A stretch of DNA of 56,665 bases from Faecalibacillus intestinalis (GTDB taxonomy: Bacteria > Bacillota_I > Bacilli_A > Erysipelotrichales > Coprobacillaceae). A model generated the notes under the pieces. It was not told where the DNA came from. It did not search any database and saw only the letters and a list, made by a program, of their open reading frames with translations. Below, in pieces: positions 36,905 to 54,922 of this stretch (position 1 is the first letter of the stretch; every line of letters begins with the position of its first letter). The stretch lies in the NCBI RefSeq assembly GCF_003024685.1, contig NZ_PYLQ01000018.1, positions 1-56,665 of the forward strand, in the 5' to 3' direction. The position numbers were made by a program, and so were the translations under genes.

Positions 36905-38470
36905 TTAAGCAATTCCAAAGATTGCCCAGACGTATTGTCCAAAGAAACATACGAGTGCACTAATAATAATGAATAAAGCAGCGTATGGTAATACTTTTTT
37001 AAGTAATTCTCCATCTCTACCCGCTTCATCAACAGCGACTAATCCAATAGCAATACTTTGTGGTGCCATCATTTTACCAGTAGCAACACCTAAGCTGTTT
37101 GCGGCAGCAAGCCAATATTTATTAGCACCAATACTTGCAGCAGTAGACATTTGAACTGATCCAAATAAAGCACTTGAACTTGTACCTGATCCTGTAACGA
37201 ATGTACCTAATGCTCCTAACATTGGGGCAAAGAATGGATAAACAGGTCCAAATACTGAAAATAAAGCGGCAACGGCAGCAATCATTCCTGAATATTGCAT
37301 AACACGAGCTGTTGCTAAAATAAATAACATTGTTAAAATTGTAAACATCATTTGTTTTAATGTTGCAATAAAGACAGCAACCATTTCTGATACTTTTGCT
37401 TTTTGGATAAATCCACCAACGATGGCACATAAAATAATTAAGACACCTGGTGTATTGATCCATGTAAATGTTGTCATACTTGCGTTTTTGTATGTTGAAA
37501 TTTTTACACTTGTCGCAAATGATGATAACGCATCATGGATTGGTGGTACTAAATTACTTGTAAGTAATAAAACAACAAAGATTAAAATAAACGGTGATAA
37601 CGCTTGTAAAGTTTTTCCTACTTTTAAAGGACTTCCTTTTTTTACTTCTAAACGATATTCATCAGGAATAGCGTCTGGATTTGTAAATTTCATACTAGCT
37701 AAAATTGTACATACTAATGAGATAACTGAAGCTGCAACCCCCGCAAGTTCAGCACCAACAAAATATGAAACAACCATTTCTGGAATTAAGAAAGATAATC
37801 CTGAAACTAAAACAACTGGTACAATTCCTTTAAAGGCAGAACCTTTTCCTTTTGTACTTTTTCCTAAAATATAAACCATCACAAATGGTGTTAAAATAAT
37901 TAAAACACTTAAAGCACAAGAAGTTGCAAAAGCAATTAAGTTATTTTCTAAACCTAAGTTTGTTGCAAGTGTTACTGTAGGAATAGCAATTGACCCAAAT
38001 GGTGTTGGTGTTGAATTGGCAACTAAACAAACAAGACAGGCTAGAATTGGATCAAAATCTAAAACCCATAACATACTTGCTGGAATCGCAACTGCTGTAC
38101 CAAATCCAGCCATTGCTTCCATGAAACCACCAAATGACCATCCAATTAATAAAACTAAAACACGTTTATCAGCGGATACACTTGTAAGTAATTTTTTAAT
38201 CATATCGATTGATCCTGTACGTAAAGATAAGTTATACGTAAAAACTGCTGCAATAATAACGATAACAATTGGCCACATTGCAAACGCAAAACCTTCTAAA
38301 ACAGAAGTTAATGTATCTGACATTGAGAATCCAAAATATGTTAATGCTTCAACCGCAGCAATAATTAAGGCACCTAAAGCAGCCTTATATCCTGGCCATT
38401 TTAAACCACATAAAGCGATTACTAACCAGATAATAGGTAATAAACCTAAGATAAAATTAATAATTAGCAT
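36905..38470 (-). CDS. lctP: L-lactate permease family transporter
   Basis: A polytopic membrane protein of 521 aa with about 12-13 helices, belonging to the LctP family (lactate:proton symport, also glycolate). Recognisable stretches: LIINFILGLLPIIWLV at the start, LLIGWSFGGFMEAMAGFGTAVAIPAS, NSTPTPFGSIAIP, and the late GSGTSSSALFGSVQ and TGKMMAPQSIAIG motifs. RBS GAGGGGGAAA stands before the ATG at 38470; the in-frame TTG at 38491 lies upstream of the RBS. Divergent from the HPr-D-lactate dehydrogenase gene, with 137 bp between starts, implying joint control of lactate production and transport. Confidence 0.93.
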   Translation of the reverse strand: MLIINFILGLLPIIWLVIALCGLKWPGYKAALGALIIAAVEALTYFGFSMSDTLTSVLEGFAFAMWPIVIVIIAAVFTYNLSLRTGSIDMIKKLLTSVSADKRVLVLLIGWSFGGFMEAMAGFGTAVAIPASMLWVLDFDPILACLVCLVANSTPTPFGSIAIPTVTLATNLGLENNLIAFATSCALSVLIILTPFVMVYILGKSTKGKGSAFKGIVPVVLVSGLSFLIPEMVVSYFVGAELAGVAASVISLVCTILASMKFTNPDAIPDEYRLEVKKGSPLKVGKTLQALSPFILIFVVLLLTSNLVPPIHDALSSFATSVKISTYKNASMTTFTWINTPGVLIILCAIVGGFIQKAKVSEMVAVFIATLKQMMFTILTMLFILATARVMQYSGMIAAVAALFSVFGPVYPFFAPMLGALGTFVTGSGTSSSALFGSVQMSTAASIGANKYWLAAANSLGVATGKMMAPQSIAIGLVAVDEAGRDGELLKKVLPYAALFIIISALVCFFGQYVWAIFGIA

Positions 38471-38495
38471 TATTTTTCCCCCTCTTGACAAACCT

Positions 38496-38607: not shown

Positions 38608-39909
38608 ATGAAAGAAATTAGTTATGTAGTTAATAACACATTAGGTATTCATGCAAGACCTGCTGCATTGCTTGCTCAATGTTGCGTGAATTTCAAAAGC
38701 CAAGTAAGAATTCACTTAGGTGATAAAGTGGCTGATGGAGACAACGTTCTTCAAATCTTAGCATTAGGTGCTAAAAAAGGTGATACTTTAAGAGTGGATA
38801 TCGATGGTGATGACGAAGAAGTTGCAGCAAAAGCAATCGAAGAATTATTACATGGTGCTTTTGAAGAAAAGAAACCTGTAGATGTTTTAAAAATTGCATT
38901 CTTTGGAACTAAAGATTATGATAGAACTTTCTTTAGTGAATTAGTAAAAGATAAAGGTCAAGGAACTTACAATTCAGATATCAAATATTTTGATTCTCAA
39001 TTAGGACCTGAAACTGCTGGTTTAGCTCAAGGTTATGATGCTGTATGTATCTTCGTTAACGATAACGCTTCAAGACCAGTTGTTGAAAAATTACATGAAT
39101 GTGGTGTTAAATTAATCTTATTACGTTGTGCTGGATTCAACAATGTTGATTTACAAGCTGCAAAAGAATATGGAATTACAGTTTTACGTGTTCCTGCTTA
39201 TTCACCATATGCAGTTGCTGAACATGCAATGGCAATTCTACAAGAAGCAAACCGTCGTTTACACAAAGCTTATACAAAAGTTAAAGATAATAACTTTGCT
39301 TTAAGTGGTTTATTAGGTTTAGACCTACATAATAAAGTTGCTGGTATCATGGGTACTGGTAAAATCGGTCAATGTATGGCTAGAATTTGTAAAGGTTATG
39401 GTATGACAGTTTTAGGATGGGATGCTTATCCTAACCAAGCATTAGTTGATGAAGGTTTATTAACTTATGTAAGTAAAGAAGAATTATTAAAGAGAGCTGA
39501 TTTAATTTCTTTACACTGTCCATTAATTATGGGAGATAATGGAACTTATCATTTAATTAACGATGAAACAATCGCTTTAATGAAAGATACAGTTATGTTA
39601 GTTAATACAAGTAGAGGACCTATCATTGATCCTGAAGCATTAATTAGAGCATTAAAACAAGGTAAATTCCATGCTGTTGCTTTAGACGTATATGAAGGTG
39701 AAGATAATAACGTTTATACAGATAAAAGTGATGTTGCTATCACAAACGATATCACAGCTCGTTTACAAATGTTCCCTCAACTTGTTTTAACAAGTCACCA
39801 AGCATTCTTTACTCGTGAAGCTTTACAAGCAATCGCTGTTGTTACAATGGAAAATGCACGTAACTTCAATGAAGGTAATGAATTAGGAAACGCTGAATGT
39901 AAAGCATAA
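38608..39909 (+). CDS. HPr domain fused to D-lactate dehydrogenase (LdhA-like)
   Basis: A protein of 433 aa. Residues 1-88 are a complete HPr domain: GIHARPAA with phospho-acceptor His15 and Arg17, and the DNVLQILALGAKKGD block aligned to HPr 45-59, where the HPrK target Ser46 is Asn46. Residues 93-430 are an NAD-dependent D-lactate dehydrogenase close to E. coli LdhA in pattern: LRCAGFNNVDL, PAYSPYAVAEHA, NAD loop GTGKIG (249-254), NTSRGP with Arg336, DVYEGE with Glu363, TSHQAF with His397. All catalytic residues are present, so it should reduce pyruvate to D-lactate. Fusion to a phosphocarrier suggests control by PEP/PTS phosphorylation at His15 (inference). Start has RBS GGAGGA; monocistronic; divergent from lctP. 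I know of no characterised example. Confidence 0.95.
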   Translation: MKEISYVVNNTLGIHARPAALLAQCCVNFKSQVRIHLGDKVADGDNVLQILALGAKKGDTLRVDIDGDDEEVAAKAIEELLHGAFEEKKPVDVLKIAFFGTKDYDRTFFSELVKDKGQGTYNSDIKYFDSQLGPETAGLAQGYDAVCIFVNDNASRPVVEKLHECGVKLILLRCAGFNNVDLQAAKEYGITVLRVPAYSPYAVAEHAMAILQEANRRLHKAYTKVKDNNFALSGLLGLDLHNKVAGIMGTGKIGQCMARICKGYGMTVLGWDAYPNQALVDEGLLTYVSKEELLKRADLISLHCPLIMGDNGTYHLINDETIALMKDTVMLVNTSRGPIIDPEALIRALKQGKFHAVALDVYEGEDNNVYTDKSDVAITNDITARLQMFPQLVLTSHQAFFTREALQAIAVVTMENARNFNEGNELGNAECKA

Positions 39910-40249: not shown

Positions 40250-40400
40250 TACTTGTTTGACACTCCCCATGTCTAAAGGCAGGGGATTCCTGCTACCTGC
40301 CAACATTGTTGGCTGACCAGTTCGTTTCTGATAGGTCGCAGTGCAAGTTAGGGGTATGCCATTACCCTTCCTAGAGCAGAACCTATAGTTCTCTAGGCAG
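40250..40400 (-). ncRNA. Putative omega (reRNA) of TnpB at the IS right end
   Basis: In IS200/IS605 elements the RNA guiding TnpB spans the end of tnpB and the right end, with the guide read from flanking DNA. Here 40255-40400 has stem-forming stretches (for example CCCCTGCCTTTAGACATGGGG at 40266-40286) and runs into the flank at about 40254. The guide would then be the next roughly 16-20 nt, beginning ACAAGTAAGTATTATAAT. This is inferred from family knowledge plus position; no promoter or end was determined. Confidence 0.55.
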
Positions 40401-41478
40401 TATATCTGTTACCAATATACTCAGTTGAGTTGCATATATTTATTGCTCCTAGCAGATCCCTGTGTGTTTGATATCCACATCTGCATATATAATTCCTGTC
40501 TTTTGCATGATGAACACTTCCACATATCGGACAAATCTGACTTGTATACGCTGGATCTACATACTCAACTTCTATGCCTGCAAGTTTTGCTTTGTATTCT
40601 ATAAATGTAGCTAGTCTATAGAATGACCATGTATGCAGGCTATGATTGTTTTTTCGACTTGTTCTTGTCGTAGAGCGTATGTTTTGAAGTCGCTCTAATT
40701 TGATTACTGATACGTCATGAGCTCTTGCTGTATTTACAATTTCACGACTTAGCTTATGATCTATATCTTTCATGATACGTTGTTCTTTGTTGTTGATTTT
40801 GACAACCGCCTTTGGCTTCTTTGCTTTTTTTTGAAATCTTTTTCTAAGATTGTTGAAGTGTCTTCTTATATATTTGTTTTTTCTCCCATTTCCATAAAAC
40901 TTGATACTTCCATCTGGACAGTAACTTACCGCAGGACATTTGATTCCAAGATCAACACCCATGACATTGTCATTTGAAGAAGCAGCATCTTCTTTGGTAT
41001 CATAGACGATTTGTGCTACGAGGTCATGTCCTTTTACAACAATACGCATCGTTCCTAATTTACTGGATGAAAAAATTGATTTCTGTCTTTCTGACATTTT
41101 TGTCTTGACTGATATACGTTTTGACTTTCCATTGATGATTACTGGAAAGTTAATACAGTCATCATTGATCCTAAAGTTTTGGTTGTTGATATAACAACAC
41201 ATTTTTTTCAAAACAGGAAGTTTTACTTGAGTATCTGAATTTCTTAAAACCTTATTATATTTTCTTATGATGGACTTGGCATCTCGAATACATTGATTGC
41301 ATAAGGCACTTGGAAGAGCAGCATTTACATCTGCTGTTGTTATTTTTGTAATAGCTCTTCCATTGATTGCATCAAGAACAAGATAATTGACTGTAGAAAT
41401 ATACTCCGACATCGTTGCCTTGATTAATTCTGTCCGATATTTATTTGGATAAAGCTTGACTGTTTCTGTTAATTGCAT
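40393..41478 (-). CDS. tnpB: RNA-guided endonuclease TnpB
   Basis: About 361 aa. RuvC-like nuclease core: MGVDLGIKCPAV (first Asp), IKLERLQNIR (Glu), and a C-terminal zinc ribbon CPICG...CRCG followed by THRDLLGAINI with the last catalytic Asp. The N-terminal half has the WED/REC-type pattern including the TVKLYPNKY opening. The catalytic residues and zinc cysteines are all present, so it may be active as a programmable nuclease that preserves the IS. A GTG starts right after the tnpA stop, but the ATG at 41478, 5-8 nt after AGGTGAT, is more likely. Coupled to tnpA. Confidence 0.93.
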   Translation of the reverse strand: MQLTETVKLYPNKYRTELIKATMSEYISTVNYLVLDAINGRAITKITTADVNAALPSALCNQCIRDAKSIIRKYNKVLRNSDTQVKLPVLKKMCCYINNQNFRINDDCINFPVIINGKSKRISVKTKMSERQKSIFSSSKLGTMRIVVKGHDLVAQIVYDTKEDAASSNDNVMGVDLGIKCPAVSYCPDGSIKFYGNGRKNKYIRRHFNNLRKRFQKKAKKPKAVVKINNKEQRIMKDIDHKLSREIVNTARAHDVSVIKLERLQNIRSTTRTSRKNNHSLHTWSFYRLATFIEYKAKLAGIEVEYVDPAYTSQICPICGSVHHAKDRNYICRCGYQTHRDLLGAINICNSTEYIGNRYTA

Positions 41479-41487
41479 AGATATCAC

Positions 41488-41880
41488 CTAAACGTTTTTT
41501 TGATCTTCAATATACTGCTTGATTACAGAAAGTGGTGCATCACCTACTGTAGATACAAAATAGCTATTGGTCCATAGCGATGGGATCCTTGATTTCAACC
41601 AAGGAAACTCCTGTCTCAACACTCTAGAAGAATAGCCCTTGATTCTTTTAACTGCTTTGTGAATTCCATATTGTGGATCTACTTCCATAAGCAAATGTAC
41701 ATGATCTGGCATGATTTTCATTTCAATGATTTCGACATTCAATTGATCACAGGTTTCTTTAATCAACTCCTTTAAGCGATCATCCACACCATCTACAAGA
41801 ACGGGACGTCGATATTTTGGACAGAATACAACATGATATTTACAGGAATAGGTCACATTATTATTTGATTTGCACTTCAT
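41488..41880 (-). CDS. tnpA: IS200/IS605-family Y1 transposase
   Basis: A single-strand transposase of 130 aa, of normal length. The HUH motif is H60-V-H62 (MPDHVHLLMEV) and the catalytic Tyr is Y123 in IKQYIEDQ. KYHVVFCPKYRRPVL at the N-terminus is typical. It acts on single-stranded IS ends folded as hairpins. All key residues are intact, so transposition is plausible. The TAG stop lies directly before the tnpB GTG/RBS. Confidence 0.95.
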   Translation of the reverse strand: MKCKSNNNVTYSCKYHVVFCPKYRRPVLVDGVDDRLKELIKETCDQLNVEIIEMKIMPDHVHLLMEVDPQYGIHKAVKRIKGYSSRVLRQEFPWLKSRIPSLWTNSYFVSTVGDAPLSVIKQYIEDQKNV

Positions 41881-50018: not shown

Positions 50019-51212
50019 ATGAAAAAACATTGGTTGGTATTAGTTTGTTGCTGTGGCTTAGCTGCTGCATCGATTGGAATTTCTATTAATTCATCAGGTG
50101 TTTTCTATACACCTGTTTCAAAGAATTTACATATGTTAAGAGGAACATTTTCAATGCATATGACATTATTTTCCCTTGCAACTGCTATGATGTCATTATT
50201 TGTTCCAAAAATCTATGAAAAATTTGCTTTTAAAAAAGTACTTACTATCAGCGTTATTGTTGCCGTTGCCTCTACAGCAGCTATGGCACTAGGAAAAAAT
50301 GCTTTAACATTTTATATTTTAGGAGCTGTTCGTGGGATGTCGACAAGTTTATTTTCCATCGTACCTATTACAATCATTATTAATGGTTGGTTTGAAAAGA
50401 AACATGGACTTGCAACAAGTATTGCTTTTGGTTTTAGTGGTTTAGGCGGAACAATTTGTTCACCTATTTTATCAAGTATCATTAGTTCATTTAATTGGCA
50501 AATGGGCTATTTATTAAAAGCCATCATTATTTTATTATTATGCCTACCAGCTTGCATTTATCCTTTTAAAATGACAGCCTTTGATGAAGGACTTGTTCCC
50601 TATGGCTATCAAGAAAGAAAAGAAACTATACAAAAACAAACAACTTCTTCTTTCCATTTTATTTCTGTTTCATTTATTGCTTTCTTTATCTTTGGAATGT
50701 TGATTAGTTGTATTACAAGTGTGACTCAACATTTACCAGGATACGGAGAATCTTTGGGGTATCCACTTACAACATGTGCCATGTTGTTATCTGCGGGAAT
50801 GATGGGAAATATTGTTTCTAAATTGATTATCGGTAGTTTAAGTGATTATTTTGGAGAAATGAAAGCAACACTTATGATGATTGGAGTTAATATTTTAGGA
50901 ATTATTTTACTCATGATTGGTAAATCAATGGTTCTACTTATTATCGGAGCTTTTATGTTTGGTTCTTGTTATTCTTTAGGTGCCGTTGCCATACCTTTAC
51001 TTACAAAATATTTCTTTAAAACAGAAAATTATGCAAAAGCTTTCCCAACAATTTCTTTTGCTTCTAATGTGGGAGCTGCTATTTCTTTATCCATGGTTGG
51101 TTATATCTATGATTTCTTTGGTTCTTATCTTTATGCATTTATAATCGCTTTAACAATGATTATGATCAGTCTTGCTTTATTGTTTATCGTAACAAAAACC
51201 AAGGAAAATTAG
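50019..51212 (+). CDS. MFS transporter (OFA/monocarboxylate-like)
   Basis: A carrier of about 397 aa with 12 helices. N-terminal segment VLVCCCGLAAASIGISINSSGVFYTPVS and the domain order resemble the oxalate/formate antiporter and monocarboxylate transporter branch of the MFS, in which small organic anions are exchanged; the substrate is inferred only at that level. AGGAGG lies 9 nt before the ATG at 50019, while the ATG at 50013 is only 3 nt from it. The stop overlaps, on the opposite strand, the stop of the convergent MBL gene within one terminator hairpin. Confidence 0.83.
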   Translation: MKKHWLVLVCCCGLAAASIGISINSSGVFYTPVSKNLHMLRGTFSMHMTLFSLATAMMSLFVPKIYEKFAFKKVLTISVIVAVASTAAMALGKNALTFYILGAVRGMSTSLFSIVPITIIINGWFEKKHGLATSIAFGFSGLGGTICSPILSSIISSFNWQMGYLLKAIIILLLCLPACIYPFKMTAFDEGLVPYGYQERKETIQKQTTSSFHFISVSFIAFFIFGMLISCITSVTQHLPGYGESLGYPLTTCAMLLSAGMMGNIVSKLIIGSLSDYFGEMKATLMMIGVNILGIILLMIGKSMVLLIIGAFMFGSCYSLGAVAIPLLTKYFFKTENYAKAFPTISFASNVGAAISLSMVGYIYDFFGSYLYAFIIALTMIMISLALLFIVTKTKEN

Positions 51213-51228
51213 TTCCTTGGTTTTTCAA
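51199..51228. terminator. Shared bidirectional terminator with both stops in the loop
   Basis: AACCAAGGAA/TTCCTTGGTT stem (51199-51226) with loop AATTAG. The plus-strand stop TAG (51210-51212) and the minus-strand stop TAA (51211-51209) overlap in the loop. The plus strand has TTTTT after the stem; the minus strand has TTTTTG. Confidence 0.85.
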
Positions 51229-51808
51229 ATATAACCGTTTGTTTTTGCGTTTCTTGATTGACTTCAATAACATCTTTTACATAACAGATATCTTTTCTAT
51301 TTTTTATAAACTCTTCGTTGGTTGATAAAACATCATAACCCACATCACCACTACGATAATGCATTGGTATAACAATGCGTGGTTGAATCTGATTGATATA
51401 TTCTAAAGCTTCCTTTGTATCAATTGTATAATAACCTCCAATAGGAATCATTAAAACACCACAATTCTTGATTTTTGAAAGATCATCAATCATACAGCCA
51501 ATATCTCCCATATGCACGACTTTCATATTTTCATAAGTTAAAATATGAATCGTATTTTTACCACGACGACTACCTAAATGATGGTCATGATACGTTTTAA
51601 TTTTTTCTACTTTAAATTCTTTAGGCAATACATCTACACAATCTCTAGCATTATGATCATTATGTCCATGAGAACATAAAACTAGATTTCCTTTTAAATG
51701 AAGTTTGTTTAATCCTGGAATTGAACCTTCTTGATAAGGATCAAAAATAACTGTTCCATCACTGCCTGTTATTTCAAAACAAGAATGTCCATACCAAATA
51801 ATTTTCAT
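51209..51808 (-). CDS. MBL-fold metal-dependent hydrolase (UPF0173/UlaG-like)
   Basis: About 199 aa. Metallo-beta-lactamase motifs: IIWYGHSCFEI, then LCSHGHNDHNA (HxHxDH), VVHMGDIG (Asp) and IPMHYRSGDVG (His), the order of the UPF0173/YtkL/UlaG group. Substrates of this small type are mostly unknown; UlaG itself opens L-ascorbate-6-phosphate lactone. The start is the ATG at 51808, whose RBS AAAGGAG overlaps the stop of the upstream EIIB/ROK-like gene, so the two are translationally coupled and probably act in one carbohydrate-phosphate process. Confidence 0.88.
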   Translation of the reverse strand: MKIIWYGHSCFEITGSDGTVIFDPYQEGSIPGLNKLHLKGNLVLCSHGHNDHNARDCVDVLPKEFKVEKIKTYHDHHLGSRRGKNTIHILTYENMKVVHMGDIGCMIDDLSKIKNCGVLMIPIGGYYTIDTKEALEYINQIQPRIVIPMHYRSGDVGYDVLSTNEEFIKNRKDICYVKDVIEVNQETQKQTVIFEKPRN

Positions 51809-51812
51809 CAAA

Positions 51813-53219
51813 TCACTCCTTTGCACTTAAAATCATTGCACCTAATAATATATATTCTAAAATATTTTCCACTTTAATAATCTTTGGATATACTTTTAAA
51901 GAATATTGACTCAATGATTTTTTTATTTCATTACTCACATCTTGACTATCTAAAATCAAATCACTATAAACAACTATCGCCTCTGGTGATACAATTGCTA
52001 TAATACTCATAATATTTTTACTAACAAGTTCCAATGTGCCTTCTGGTGTATTCGCAAGTGTAAAATAATCATTAGAAAGTTTTAATGGTAAAAGTGCTAC
52101 TTCTCCAGCAAGATGATCCATTCCTCTTACTAGTTGACCATTAACAATTATGCCACTTCCAGCCATACGTCCAATAGGTTGGAATAAAAAAGCAATAGAT
52201 TTATATTGGTTTTGTGAAGCATAATAGCCTACAACAGCAGCATTAACATCATTAATCAAATAAATTTCCTTTTCATATCTCTTCTCCAACAATTCCTTAA
52301 GTTGATGATTTCCACCCTCAATAATCCCCGAATAAACGTTTCCTTCAACCATCACTCCTGGTAAAGCAATAGAAATCACATCAATCATTTCATTTTGTAA
52401 AACAACTGTATCTAAAGCATCCAGAACATCATGTAATTTGATATTACTTTTAATAATATTACTATCTAATACAATTTCTTGTAGATTATTATATAAACGA
52501 TAAGAAATATGACTATTTTCCCCATTAGCGTTAATAGAAACCGCTAAAATATTTTTCTTTGTTTTAATTTCCATCATTGATGCAAGAGGTTCTACTGTAC
52601 TATCATATTTCTTTTCCTTATTTTTTATAGACTCTTCAACAAAAGTAATCAAAGCTCCTACATTATAAGAAGCAAAAATTTGTGTAGGTATCTTTAAAAC
52701 CAATTTATTTTTAAATACTTTTTCCACTTGTAATTTAACATAAGAAACTTGAGGAGCTAGTAAGATGACATCATAATTTTGAGCAACATTATATATTTTT
52801 TGATATGAAGTAGCAGCTACTTCCATATTTAAATTTAAAACTTTTATTCCATTTTTGATTTTATCTGCAAAAAATGCTGTTGTCATCCCGCCACTACAAC
52901 AAAGTAAAAGACGACATATTGGTTGATTAACCATTTTTTGAATACATTGATCCATTTCTTCAAATAAAGAAATAGCATGTTTCAATGTTTTGAATTGAAA
53001 ATGAAGATAAAAAGCCATTTCATCTGTTCTTTTATTCATTACACATAATTCTATGATACATTGTGGATTAAAAGTCACATAACTATAACAGTATTCATTT
53101 TCAATAATAATCGCATCCGGATCCGTTTCACTTGGATAAAGATAATAATAATCTCTTTTTTGATTACTGATCCACTTTCTAAATATGGCAGTTTGTATCT
53201 CTCTTAAATAATCATCCAT
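51813..53219 (-). CDS. EIIB-like domain fused to a ROK-like domain
   Basis: A 468-aa protein in three parts. Residues 1-100: unrecognised, Tyr/acidic-rich. Residues 101-190: a PTS lactose/cellobiose EIIB-like domain, RLLLCCSGGMTT (Cys108 at the phosphocysteine position), and VILLAPQVSYV. Residues 222-468: ROK-like ASKHA fold, with IALPGVMVEG, LINDVNAAVVG (Asp324 at the catalytic base position) and GSGIIVNGQLVRGMDHLAGEV. The N-terminal ROK phosphate loop DxGGT is replaced by SINANGEN and the zinc CxxGCxE motif is missing, so sugar kinase activity is doubtful. A phosphorylation-responsive sensor is more likely (inference). Its stop overlaps the RBS of the MBL hydrolase gene. Confidence 0.82.
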   Translation of the reverse strand: MDDYLREIQTAIFRKWISNQKRDYYYLYPSETDPDAIIIENEYCYSYVTFNPQCIIELCVMNKRTDEMAFYLHFQFKTLKHAISLFEEMDQCIQKMVNQPICRLLLCCSGGMTTAFFADKIKNGIKVLNLNMEVAATSYQKIYNVAQNYDVILLAPQVSYVKLQVEKVFKNKLVLKIPTQIFASYNVGALITFVEESIKNKEKKYDSTVEPLASMMEIKTKKNILAVSINANGENSHISYRLYNNLQEIVLDSNIIKSNIKLHDVLDALDTVVLQNEMIDVISIALPGVMVEGNVYSGIIEGGNHQLKELLEKRYEKEIYLINDVNAAVVGYYASQNQYKSIAFLFQPIGRMAGSGIIVNGQLVRGMDHLAGEVALLPLKLSNDYFTLANTPEGTLELVSKNIMSIIAIVSPEAIVVYSDLILDSQDVSNEIKKSLSQYSLKVYPKIIKVENILEYILLGAMILSAKE

Positions 53220-53447: not shown

Positions 53448-53822
53448 TTAGTTAATAATTTTTAAAACATCTTCTTCATTTGTTACATTAAAAATATGAC
53501 GTGTTAATATATTAAGTTTTTCAATAGGTGCTTTTGATAATTGATTTGTTAGATTATTTGATAGATTTCCAAACTAAATTTCTAATTGTTCTTTTAACGT
53601 ATTTTGTTTTTCTTCCAATTTTCCTTCAATAACTCCTTCAGACCTACCTTCTTTTCTAAACCCTTCTGCCATTCTTTCCATTCCTTCACACATATCCATT
53701 TCATCTCCTTCTAGAACGTTTTCAACTTGATCTATACTTCCTATAATAATGGCTGCATAGAGAAAGTTTTCTTTTTTCATTCTCTTTAATCTTTTTAAAT
53801 CTTCATAGCTTCCTTTATACAT
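53448..53822 (-). pseudogene. Truncated tandem copy of the Rpn-family gene (3' part)
   Basis: This matches the last about 125 codons of the adjacent full gene at roughly 90 percent by eye, starting at MYKGSYEDLKRLKRMKK and ending DVLKIIN at 53448. A TAG at 53576-53574 (where the full copy has Lys in GIKFG) leaves an open frame of 82 aa (53822-53574). An 11-codon stretch (region of EARSKSKYKAE) is shortened to RSEG. The strong internal SD and ATG (SD 53710-53705, ATG 53699) are preserved and would give a 41-aa peptide. The PD-(D/E)XK nuclease domain is absent. It may be debris or a free-standing C-terminal-domain ORF. Confidence 0.75.
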
Positions 53823-53916: not shown

Positions 53917-54192
53917 TCAATTAATAATTTTTAAAACATCTTCTTCATTTGTTACATTAAAAATGTGACGTGTTAATACATTAAGTTTTTCAATAGATGC
54001 TTTTGATAATTGATTTGTTAGATTACTTGAAAGACTTCCAAATTTAATTCCTAATTGTTCTTTTAACATATTTTGTTTTTCTTCTAATTTTCCTTCAATA
54101 ATTCCTTCTGCTTTATATTTACTTTTACTTCTCGCTTCTCCTTCTTTTCTAAATCCTTCTGCCATTCTTTCCATTCCTTCGCACATATCCAT
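53917..54192 (-). CDS. Candidate internal ORF of the Rpn gene (RpnS-like small protein)
   Basis: Inside the Rpn reading frame, GAAGGAG (54204-54198) stands 5 nt before an ATG at 54192, a better ribosome binding site than that of the full gene. In-frame initiation would give a 91-aa protein equal to the variable C-terminal domain (MDMCEGMERMAEGF to KIIN). For E. coli rpn genes, internally initiated small proteins that bind and inhibit the full-length nuclease have been described; that this is one is inference. The same SD/ATG is conserved in the truncated neighbour copy. Confidence 0.5.
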   Translation of the reverse strand: MDMCEGMERMAEGFRKEGEARSKSKYKAEGIIEGKLEEKQNMLKEQLGIKFGSLSSNLTNQLSKASIEKLNVLTRHIFNVTNEEDVLKIIN

Positions 54193-54870
54193 CTCATCTC
54201 CTTCTAGAACATTTTCAACTTGATCTATACTTCCTGTAATGATGGCTGCATAGAGAAAGTTTTCTTTTTTCATTCTCTTTAATTTTTTTAAATCTTCATA
54301 GCTTCCTTTATACATTGCTTGGATAGCTTCTATAAAGTAACGAGTTTGCTCATCACTGATCTTACTTGTATCCATTTCTTTAACATCTACAAGAATGATT
54401 TTCCAATCATTAAAGTATTTCTTTAATTCTTCGGGTATTTCAAAATAATCACTGAGTTTTAAAGGAGCATTCCATTTCTTTGGTCCTGTATAAAGTACTA
54501 CTATTATTTGAGGAACTAATCTTTTATACTCTTTATTTTCTGCCTGTTTTAAATATTCCAACATTTCATAGATTCCACAACGAATAACCATCGTTTCATC
54601 AATACTACTTTGATGCTCTATTCCTAGTATACAGTAGATTCCATTAATATCACTTTTAACGACAATATCCCTTCTTCTTTTTTTATCTTCTGCTCTTTTC
54701 GAATCATTGATAATAAAAGAAATATCATTTTCATAACGTACCAATCTATCAGGATGAATGATTTGTTTCCCTTCAAATATAGCTGCATTATAAAAAGATG
54801 CAAAACTGACATCATTACTGAATACTGTTCGACAAGCACCATCAGCTGTTAACTTATTTAGAGGTTCCAT
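53917..54870 (-). CDS. Rpn family recombination-promoting nuclease / putative transposase
   Basis: About 317 aa. N-terminal PD-(D/E)XK nuclease domain: KLTADGACRTVFSND, RRRDIVVKS (Asp), and YCILGIEHQSS (ExQ), the Rpn/YhgA-like (Transposase_31) pattern. Next comes the middle region (QIIVVLYTGPKKWNAPLKL, DYFEIPEELKKYF) and a variable C-terminal domain (about 195-317) rich in Lys/Glu. Rpn proteins are DNA endonucleases linked to recombination and phage defence. The ATG at 54870 has AGTAGG at 8 nt; an ATG two codons earlier is closer. TATAAT at 54928-54923 is the likely -10. A strong internal SD/ATG lies at 54204-54190. Confidence 0.88.
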   Translation of the reverse strand: MEPLNKLTADGACRTVFSNDVSFASFYNAAIFEGKQIIHPDRLVRYENDISFIINDSKRAEDKKRRRDIVVKSDINGIYCILGIEHQSSIDETMVIRCGIYEMLEYLKQAENKEYKRLVPQIIVVLYTGPKKWNAPLKLSDYFEIPEELKKYFNDWKIILVDVKEMDTSKISDEQTRYFIEAIQAMYKGSYEDLKKLKRMKKENFLYAAIITGSIDQVENVLEGDEMDMCEGMERMAEGFRKEGEARSKSKYKAEGIIEGKLEEKQNMLKEQLGIKFGSLSSNLTNQLSKASIEKLNVLTRHIFNVTNEEDVLKIIN

Positions 54871-54922
54871 ACACATTACCTACTTTCTTTTAAAGTAACA
54901 TATCTAGATTTATTACAAGTAG

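Follow-up and report, generated by a model that had tools for sequence, protein, structure and literature searches.

A predicted Lac/Cel-type EIIB domain fused to a ROK domain of repressor lineage: a candidate PTS-reading regulator in Coprobacillaceae

One gene of Faecalibacillus intestinalis joins an EIIB domain of the PTS to a ROK domain in a single polypeptide, which raises the question of whether such a protein acts on sugars as an enzyme or reports on them as a regulator. The gene lies in a stretch of 56,665 nucleotides (contig NZ_PYLQ01000018.1, hereafter the window). The original prediction, made from the sequence alone, described an EIIB-like domain with Cys108 in its P-loop and a degenerate ROK-like domain, considered the protein to be a phosphocysteine-dependent sensor rather than a sugar kinase, and took the next gene for a translationally coupled, UlaG-like metallo-beta-lactamase (MBL)-fold hydrolase. 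Here, we have examined each domain, its relatives and its genomic surroundings.

Domain layout and the EIIB active site

The gene occupies positions 53219–51813 on the minus strand and, with its TGA stop codon included, codes for a protein of 468 aa. From its start it comprises an N-terminal domain (aa 1-100; 52920..53219), an EIIB domain (aa 101-200; 52620..52919), a linker (aa 201-222; 52554..52619) and a ROK domain (aa 223-468; 51816..52553). Strong purifying selection acts on all three domains: compared with the orthologue of F. faecis (Coprobacillaceae), which is 93% identical, dN/dS was 0.094 for the N-terminal domain, 0.018 for EIIB and 0.076 for ROK, so that the EIIB part is the most strongly constrained.

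On sequence grounds, residues 101-200 are a Lac/Cel-type PTS EIIB domain with an intact active site. Pfam PTS_IIB (PF02302) matched residues 104-180 (E 2e-9; 38.3 bits against a gathering cut-off of 23.6) and was found at E <= 0.01 in 39/39 members, and a profile of 39 sequences matched EIIB-chitobiose in the PDB at E 2e-15 over residues 99-195. Cys108 (codon 52898-52896) was aligned to the active-site Cys of EIIB, C-S-G-G-M-T-T standing against C-S-A-G-M-S-T. Together with Thr113, Ala136, Pro156, Gln157 and, in the N-terminal domain, His73 (codon 53003-53001), it was invariant in 59/59 aligned homologues, a set that takes in 14 stand-alone N+EIIB proteins of ~205 aa each. The original prediction had been staked on the conservation of Cys108 and on an EIIB fold being predicted, and both were borne out. 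A predicted structure of residues 1-205 had low confidence (mean pLDDT 58, with the P-loop region <50); despite this, its residues 122-204 best matched EIIB-Chb/Cel/Lac structures at Z 7.9-8.8 (8.8 for 1h9c and 8.7 for 1iib). The full-length AlphaFold model, built on a two-sequence alignment, reached a pLDDT of 42. Thus, the domain shares with EIIB proteins of the lactose/cellobiose/chitobiose family (1h9c, 1iib, 2wy2) the P-loop CxxG[ML]TT with the active-site Cys, the PQ motif and the predicted fold, but here it is located within a three-domain cytosolic protein, and no EIIA or EIIC gene adjoins it.

The N-terminal domain and its invariant His73 had been absent from the earlier description. 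No confident Pfam family and no PDB sequence relative could be found for residues 1-100, in which Glu57 is also kept in 58/59 homologues. The domain was predicted to be alpha-beta5-alpha, and TriTu- and frataxin-type folds were recovered at Z ~7.5, from a low-confidence model and at a level that can reflect a common arrangement. The best Foldseek match was 7zhm_C (E 4e-3), and PF24689 matched the domain in 7/47 members with a best E of 2e-4. The resemblance to the TriTu immunity protein or to a frataxin-like fold is weak and only suggestive; against a TriTu immunity protein, no toxin gene was seen adjoining and the domain of the window protein itself gave no significant sequence match. The invariant His73 may be a phosphate acceptor, or it may touch the active site of EIIB.

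Lineage of the ROK domain and distribution of the fusion

Pfam ROK (PF00480) matched residues 252-374 (E 1.4e-12; 48.2 bits against a gathering cut-off of 22.9), and the 39-member profile matched a ROK kinase at E 2e-15 over residues 234-379; ROK repressors, XylR, Mlc and Lmo0178 among them, were matched with weaker E-values. None of the motifs DxGGT, GTGxGG and CxCGxxGC could be identified in the window protein or in any of 70 ROK domains of its lineage, which agrees with the loss of the phosphate loop and the zinc motif noticed originally. Three true ROK kinases encoded in the same genome (L130-L132), used for comparison, kept DxGG[TS] and GTGIGG, and the zinc motif CxCGxxGCxE was missing there too. 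Ordinary ATP-dependent kinase activity is excluded for this domain.

A helix-turn-helix (HTH) domain was not detected by Pfam in any of 39 fused members, and the linker between EIIB and ROK (median 24 aa over fused members, by profile bounds) is too short to leave room for a winged HTH. One branch of the ROK tree (79/74) sets the fused proteins apart; next to them, HTH-bearing ROK proteins from loci with a split gene arrangement group together (98/91), and other winged-HTH ROK proteins fall outside. The ROK part thus belongs with ROK repressors. The possibility of a plain degenerate sugar kinase was rejected because the closest ROK relatives are winged-HTH repressors that lack the same motifs. 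In this respect the original contrast of sensor and kinase stands for the missing ATP loops, whereas the idea of a simply decayed kinase gives way to a repressor lineage.

At the split loci, N+EIIB is a separate gene that overlaps a downstream ROK gene by 4 nt (L088), 14 nt (L089), 1 nt (L090) or 29 nt (L091). The ROK proteins of these loci are 309–337 aa long and have ~60–80 additional N-terminal residues; in L089 and L091 both HTH_24 and ROK of Pfam were above cut-off. Over this extra region, L091 and a winged-HTH ROK paralogue encoded in the genome of the window (L033_7) matched the NagC model. The fused protein therefore has in common with NagC/XylR-type repressors the ROK sensor domain, its split and winged-HTH relatives weakly matching the NagC model, but differs from them in having no HTH and in carrying the additional N-terminal and EIIB domains. 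The N-EIIB tree is unrooted (no outgroup); in it, the split genes have one fused gene as their neighbour and the stand-alone genes are scattered, so we make no claim as to whether fusion or fission came first.

A match to the fused protein was found in 56/60 relatives, and most members of the family Coprobacillaceae have full-length copies. The N-terminal domain occurs in every sampled genome of the family, with 1 to 10 copies per genome, and hardly outside it: among 392 genomes of the phylum, its profile detected beyond the family only two sister-family genomes and one marginal 31-residue match, and a class-wide sample and a whole-protein search agreed with this distribution. No full-length relative was observed among the plasmids and phages searched, and two scans of viral contigs revealed no relatives. 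In the literature searched, from which subscription papers were largely absent, we found no description of this fusion among reports combining ROK with EIIB.

A PTS-reading regulator and competing readings

On the basis of these data, we give about an even chance to the fused protein being a PTS-reading regulatory protein, in which EIIB phosphorylation and the ROK ligand together set its state. The phosphotransfer, ligand binding, partner and output that we infer would be as follows. Phosphoryl groups would pass from HPr to a Lac/Cel-type EIIA and then to Cys108 of the EIIB domain; the genome has four EIIA-Lac/Cel and three HPr matches as possible donors, and EIIA-Lac/Cel was present in 36/36 good genomes of the family. 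The proposed relay thus withstands a check that could have refuted it, although the presence of donors is no proof of phosphotransfer. The ROK domain, whose lineage is that of NagC/Mlc-like repressors, would take a sugar or sugar phosphate as its ligand but not phosphorylate it from ATP; the pocket residues Pro287, Gly288, Asn323 and Glu373 are kept in 46-48/48 fused members. The phosphorylation state of EIIB and the ligand occupancy might jointly determine the conformation or the choice of partner. As the fused form lacks an HTH, its output would have to rely on contacts between proteins; a winged-HTH ROK paralogue or an EIIC could be the partner, or the N-terminal domain could mediate it. 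Speaking against this reading, the fused form has no DNA-binding domain, its paralogues share no conserved partner, neither an EIIA nor an EIIC gene adjoins the window gene, and the EIIB of the Mlc system described next is of another family (Glc type).

Two known systems are similar in part. In Escherichia coli, the ROK repressor Mlc is bound and sequestered by EIICB-Glc in its dephosphorylated state (PMC3901232), so that a ROK repressor responds to whether a PTS protein with an EIIB is phosphorylated. There, two proteins are involved, the EIIB is of the Glc type, sits on the membrane and is part of a transporter, and Mlc has a winged HTH, whereas in the fused protein the EIIB is of the Lac/Cel type and joined in cis, and the HTH is missing. 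In the split loci, the two partners lie in overlapping genes. Copies of the fused form have proliferated within a single family of gut bacteria. Second, EIIB-like domains occur in PRD regulators, in MtlR with the Cys conserved (PMC8560693); the fused protein has no Pfam match to a PRD or HTH and no EIIA domain, and carries ROK instead. If true, the reading as a PTS-reading regulator would add a class of regulators that respond to the PTS and have an N-terminal domain not described before. EIIB–ROK signalling would then become open to testing in a single soluble protein.

Foremost among the alternatives, and with a small but appreciable chance, is an antirepressor or decoy that pairs with winged-HTH ROK paralogues in mixed dimers and removes them from DNA, EIIB phosphorylation being the switch. 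The HTH is absent but selection still maintains the ROK fold, which is consistent with this, as is the presence of the related winged-HTH ROK L033_7 in the same genome; the mixed dimers are putative, however, and over the ROK part the two proteins share 27% identity. A small chance is also given to the EIIB domain working in trans for a Lac/Cel-family EIIC transporter, with the N-terminal and ROK parts as accessory regulators. The stand-alone N-EIIB gene of L062 follows an EIIC-cluster gene, and paralogues are located beside a plain EIIB gene (L034, L071, L076) or a GH1 gene (L065, and L071 via the EIIB gene), which would suit such a role, but there is no EIIC near the window gene or most fused paralogues, and several loci already have their own EIIB.

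It is unlikely that the protein is a cytosolic PTS-type phosphotransferase in which phosphorylated Cys108, replacing ATP, passes its phosphate to a sugar in the ROK pocket with Asp324 as the base. What speaks for it is that a putative phosphocysteine donor is fused in cis, that ROK enzymes with non-ATP donors exist (polyphosphate glucokinases; PMC12696579) and that, although the ATP loops are gone, Asn323 (47/48) and Glu373 (46/48) remain in the fused members, as does Asp324 in most of them. The catalytic Asp324, which the original prediction had found retained, is indeed present in the window protein but is not strictly kept among its relatives: it remains in 41/48 fused members, is Asn or lost in 7/48, and is kept in 22/22 winged-HTH ROK relatives, the reverse of what catalysis would predict. 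In addition, HTH proteins are among the relatives without ATP loops, a pattern that points to a repressor lineage. The related notion of a soluble PTS enzyme, a PEP-driven cytosolic sugar kinase that phosphorylates a sugar in the ROK pocket from the EIIB phosphocysteine with no membrane EIIC and no ATP, has a low probability.

Downstream hydrolase genes and other neighbours

The gene that follows the fused gene (51209..51808, minus strand) encodes an MBL-fold hydrolase of 199 aa (Lactamase_B_3, PRK00685-like) with an intact HGHNDH motif. Its start codon (ATG, 51808) lies 4 nt past the stop codon of the fused gene, and a Shine-Dalgarno-like AAAGGAG (51816..51822, minus strand) is contained within the last codons of the latter. 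This arrangement makes translational coupling plausible, and the MBL gene is probably coupled as proposed originally; the linkage itself was observed only in three Faecalibacillus genomes, namely those of the window, F. faecis and G001, the last having a HAD gene in between. A conserved MBL partnership was rejected, as the MBL gene was near only these 3 orthologues of the loci examined. The UlaG-like assignment found no specific support. The UlaG equivalog model NF008688 gave no match to the window MBL, and the best model, PRK00685, stayed below its cut-off (82 against 144 bits); the G001 orthologue scored 18.8 bits against 306 in the UlaG test. A UlaG-type enzyme (L-ascorbate-6-P lactonase) is thus unsupported. 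In a promoter and terminator scan of the locus, the predicted promoters were no better than those of shuffles.

The genes downstream of the paralogues vary widely, and no partner is common to all of them. A PHP, HAD or MBL gene starts <=20 nt away from 7/50 fused and 16/23 winged-HTH ROK genes and from 15/1244 background genes; the size of this enrichment is only indicative because the classes were picked after viewing the loci and related loci are not independent. A role of the fused protein in binding or controlling the product of the next gene, be it a phosphoesterase or an MBL, would find support in this enrichment but is unlikely, since the hydrolase classes were chosen post hoc, 43/50 fused genes have none and three unrelated enzyme folds are involved. 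In most genomes, the winged-HTH ROK genes of this family (L066, L105, L106, L108-L110, L112-L118) have a PHP-domain phosphoesterase gene downstream with which they overlap.

Several other features were noticed around the fused genes. A partial tandem copy of a look-alike of Rpn/PD-(D/E)XK-nuclease-family transposases (53574-53822 and 53917-54876, minus strand) is directly upstream of the fused gene, and an ORF pair resembling IS200/IS605 TnpA and TnpB is found at 40393-41880 (minus strand). The second fused paralogue of the genome (L032:9003-10394; G000:C1:213502-214890) immediately precedes NadA and a NadB-NadC fusion of 675 aa, and its equivalent (L070) in G004, a genome of the same genus, is followed by an HTH-3H regulator. 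Finally, the window contains another PTS-related fusion at 38608-39909 (plus strand), where an HPr domain (aa 3-81) is joined to a D-2-hydroxyacid (D-lactate-type) dehydrogenase. Its His motif LGIHARPAA is kept, and Asn seems to stand where the regulatory Ser is usually found; the fusion is full-length in 8/26 relatives, and its gene is divergent from a lactate permease look-alike (36905-38491, minus strand).
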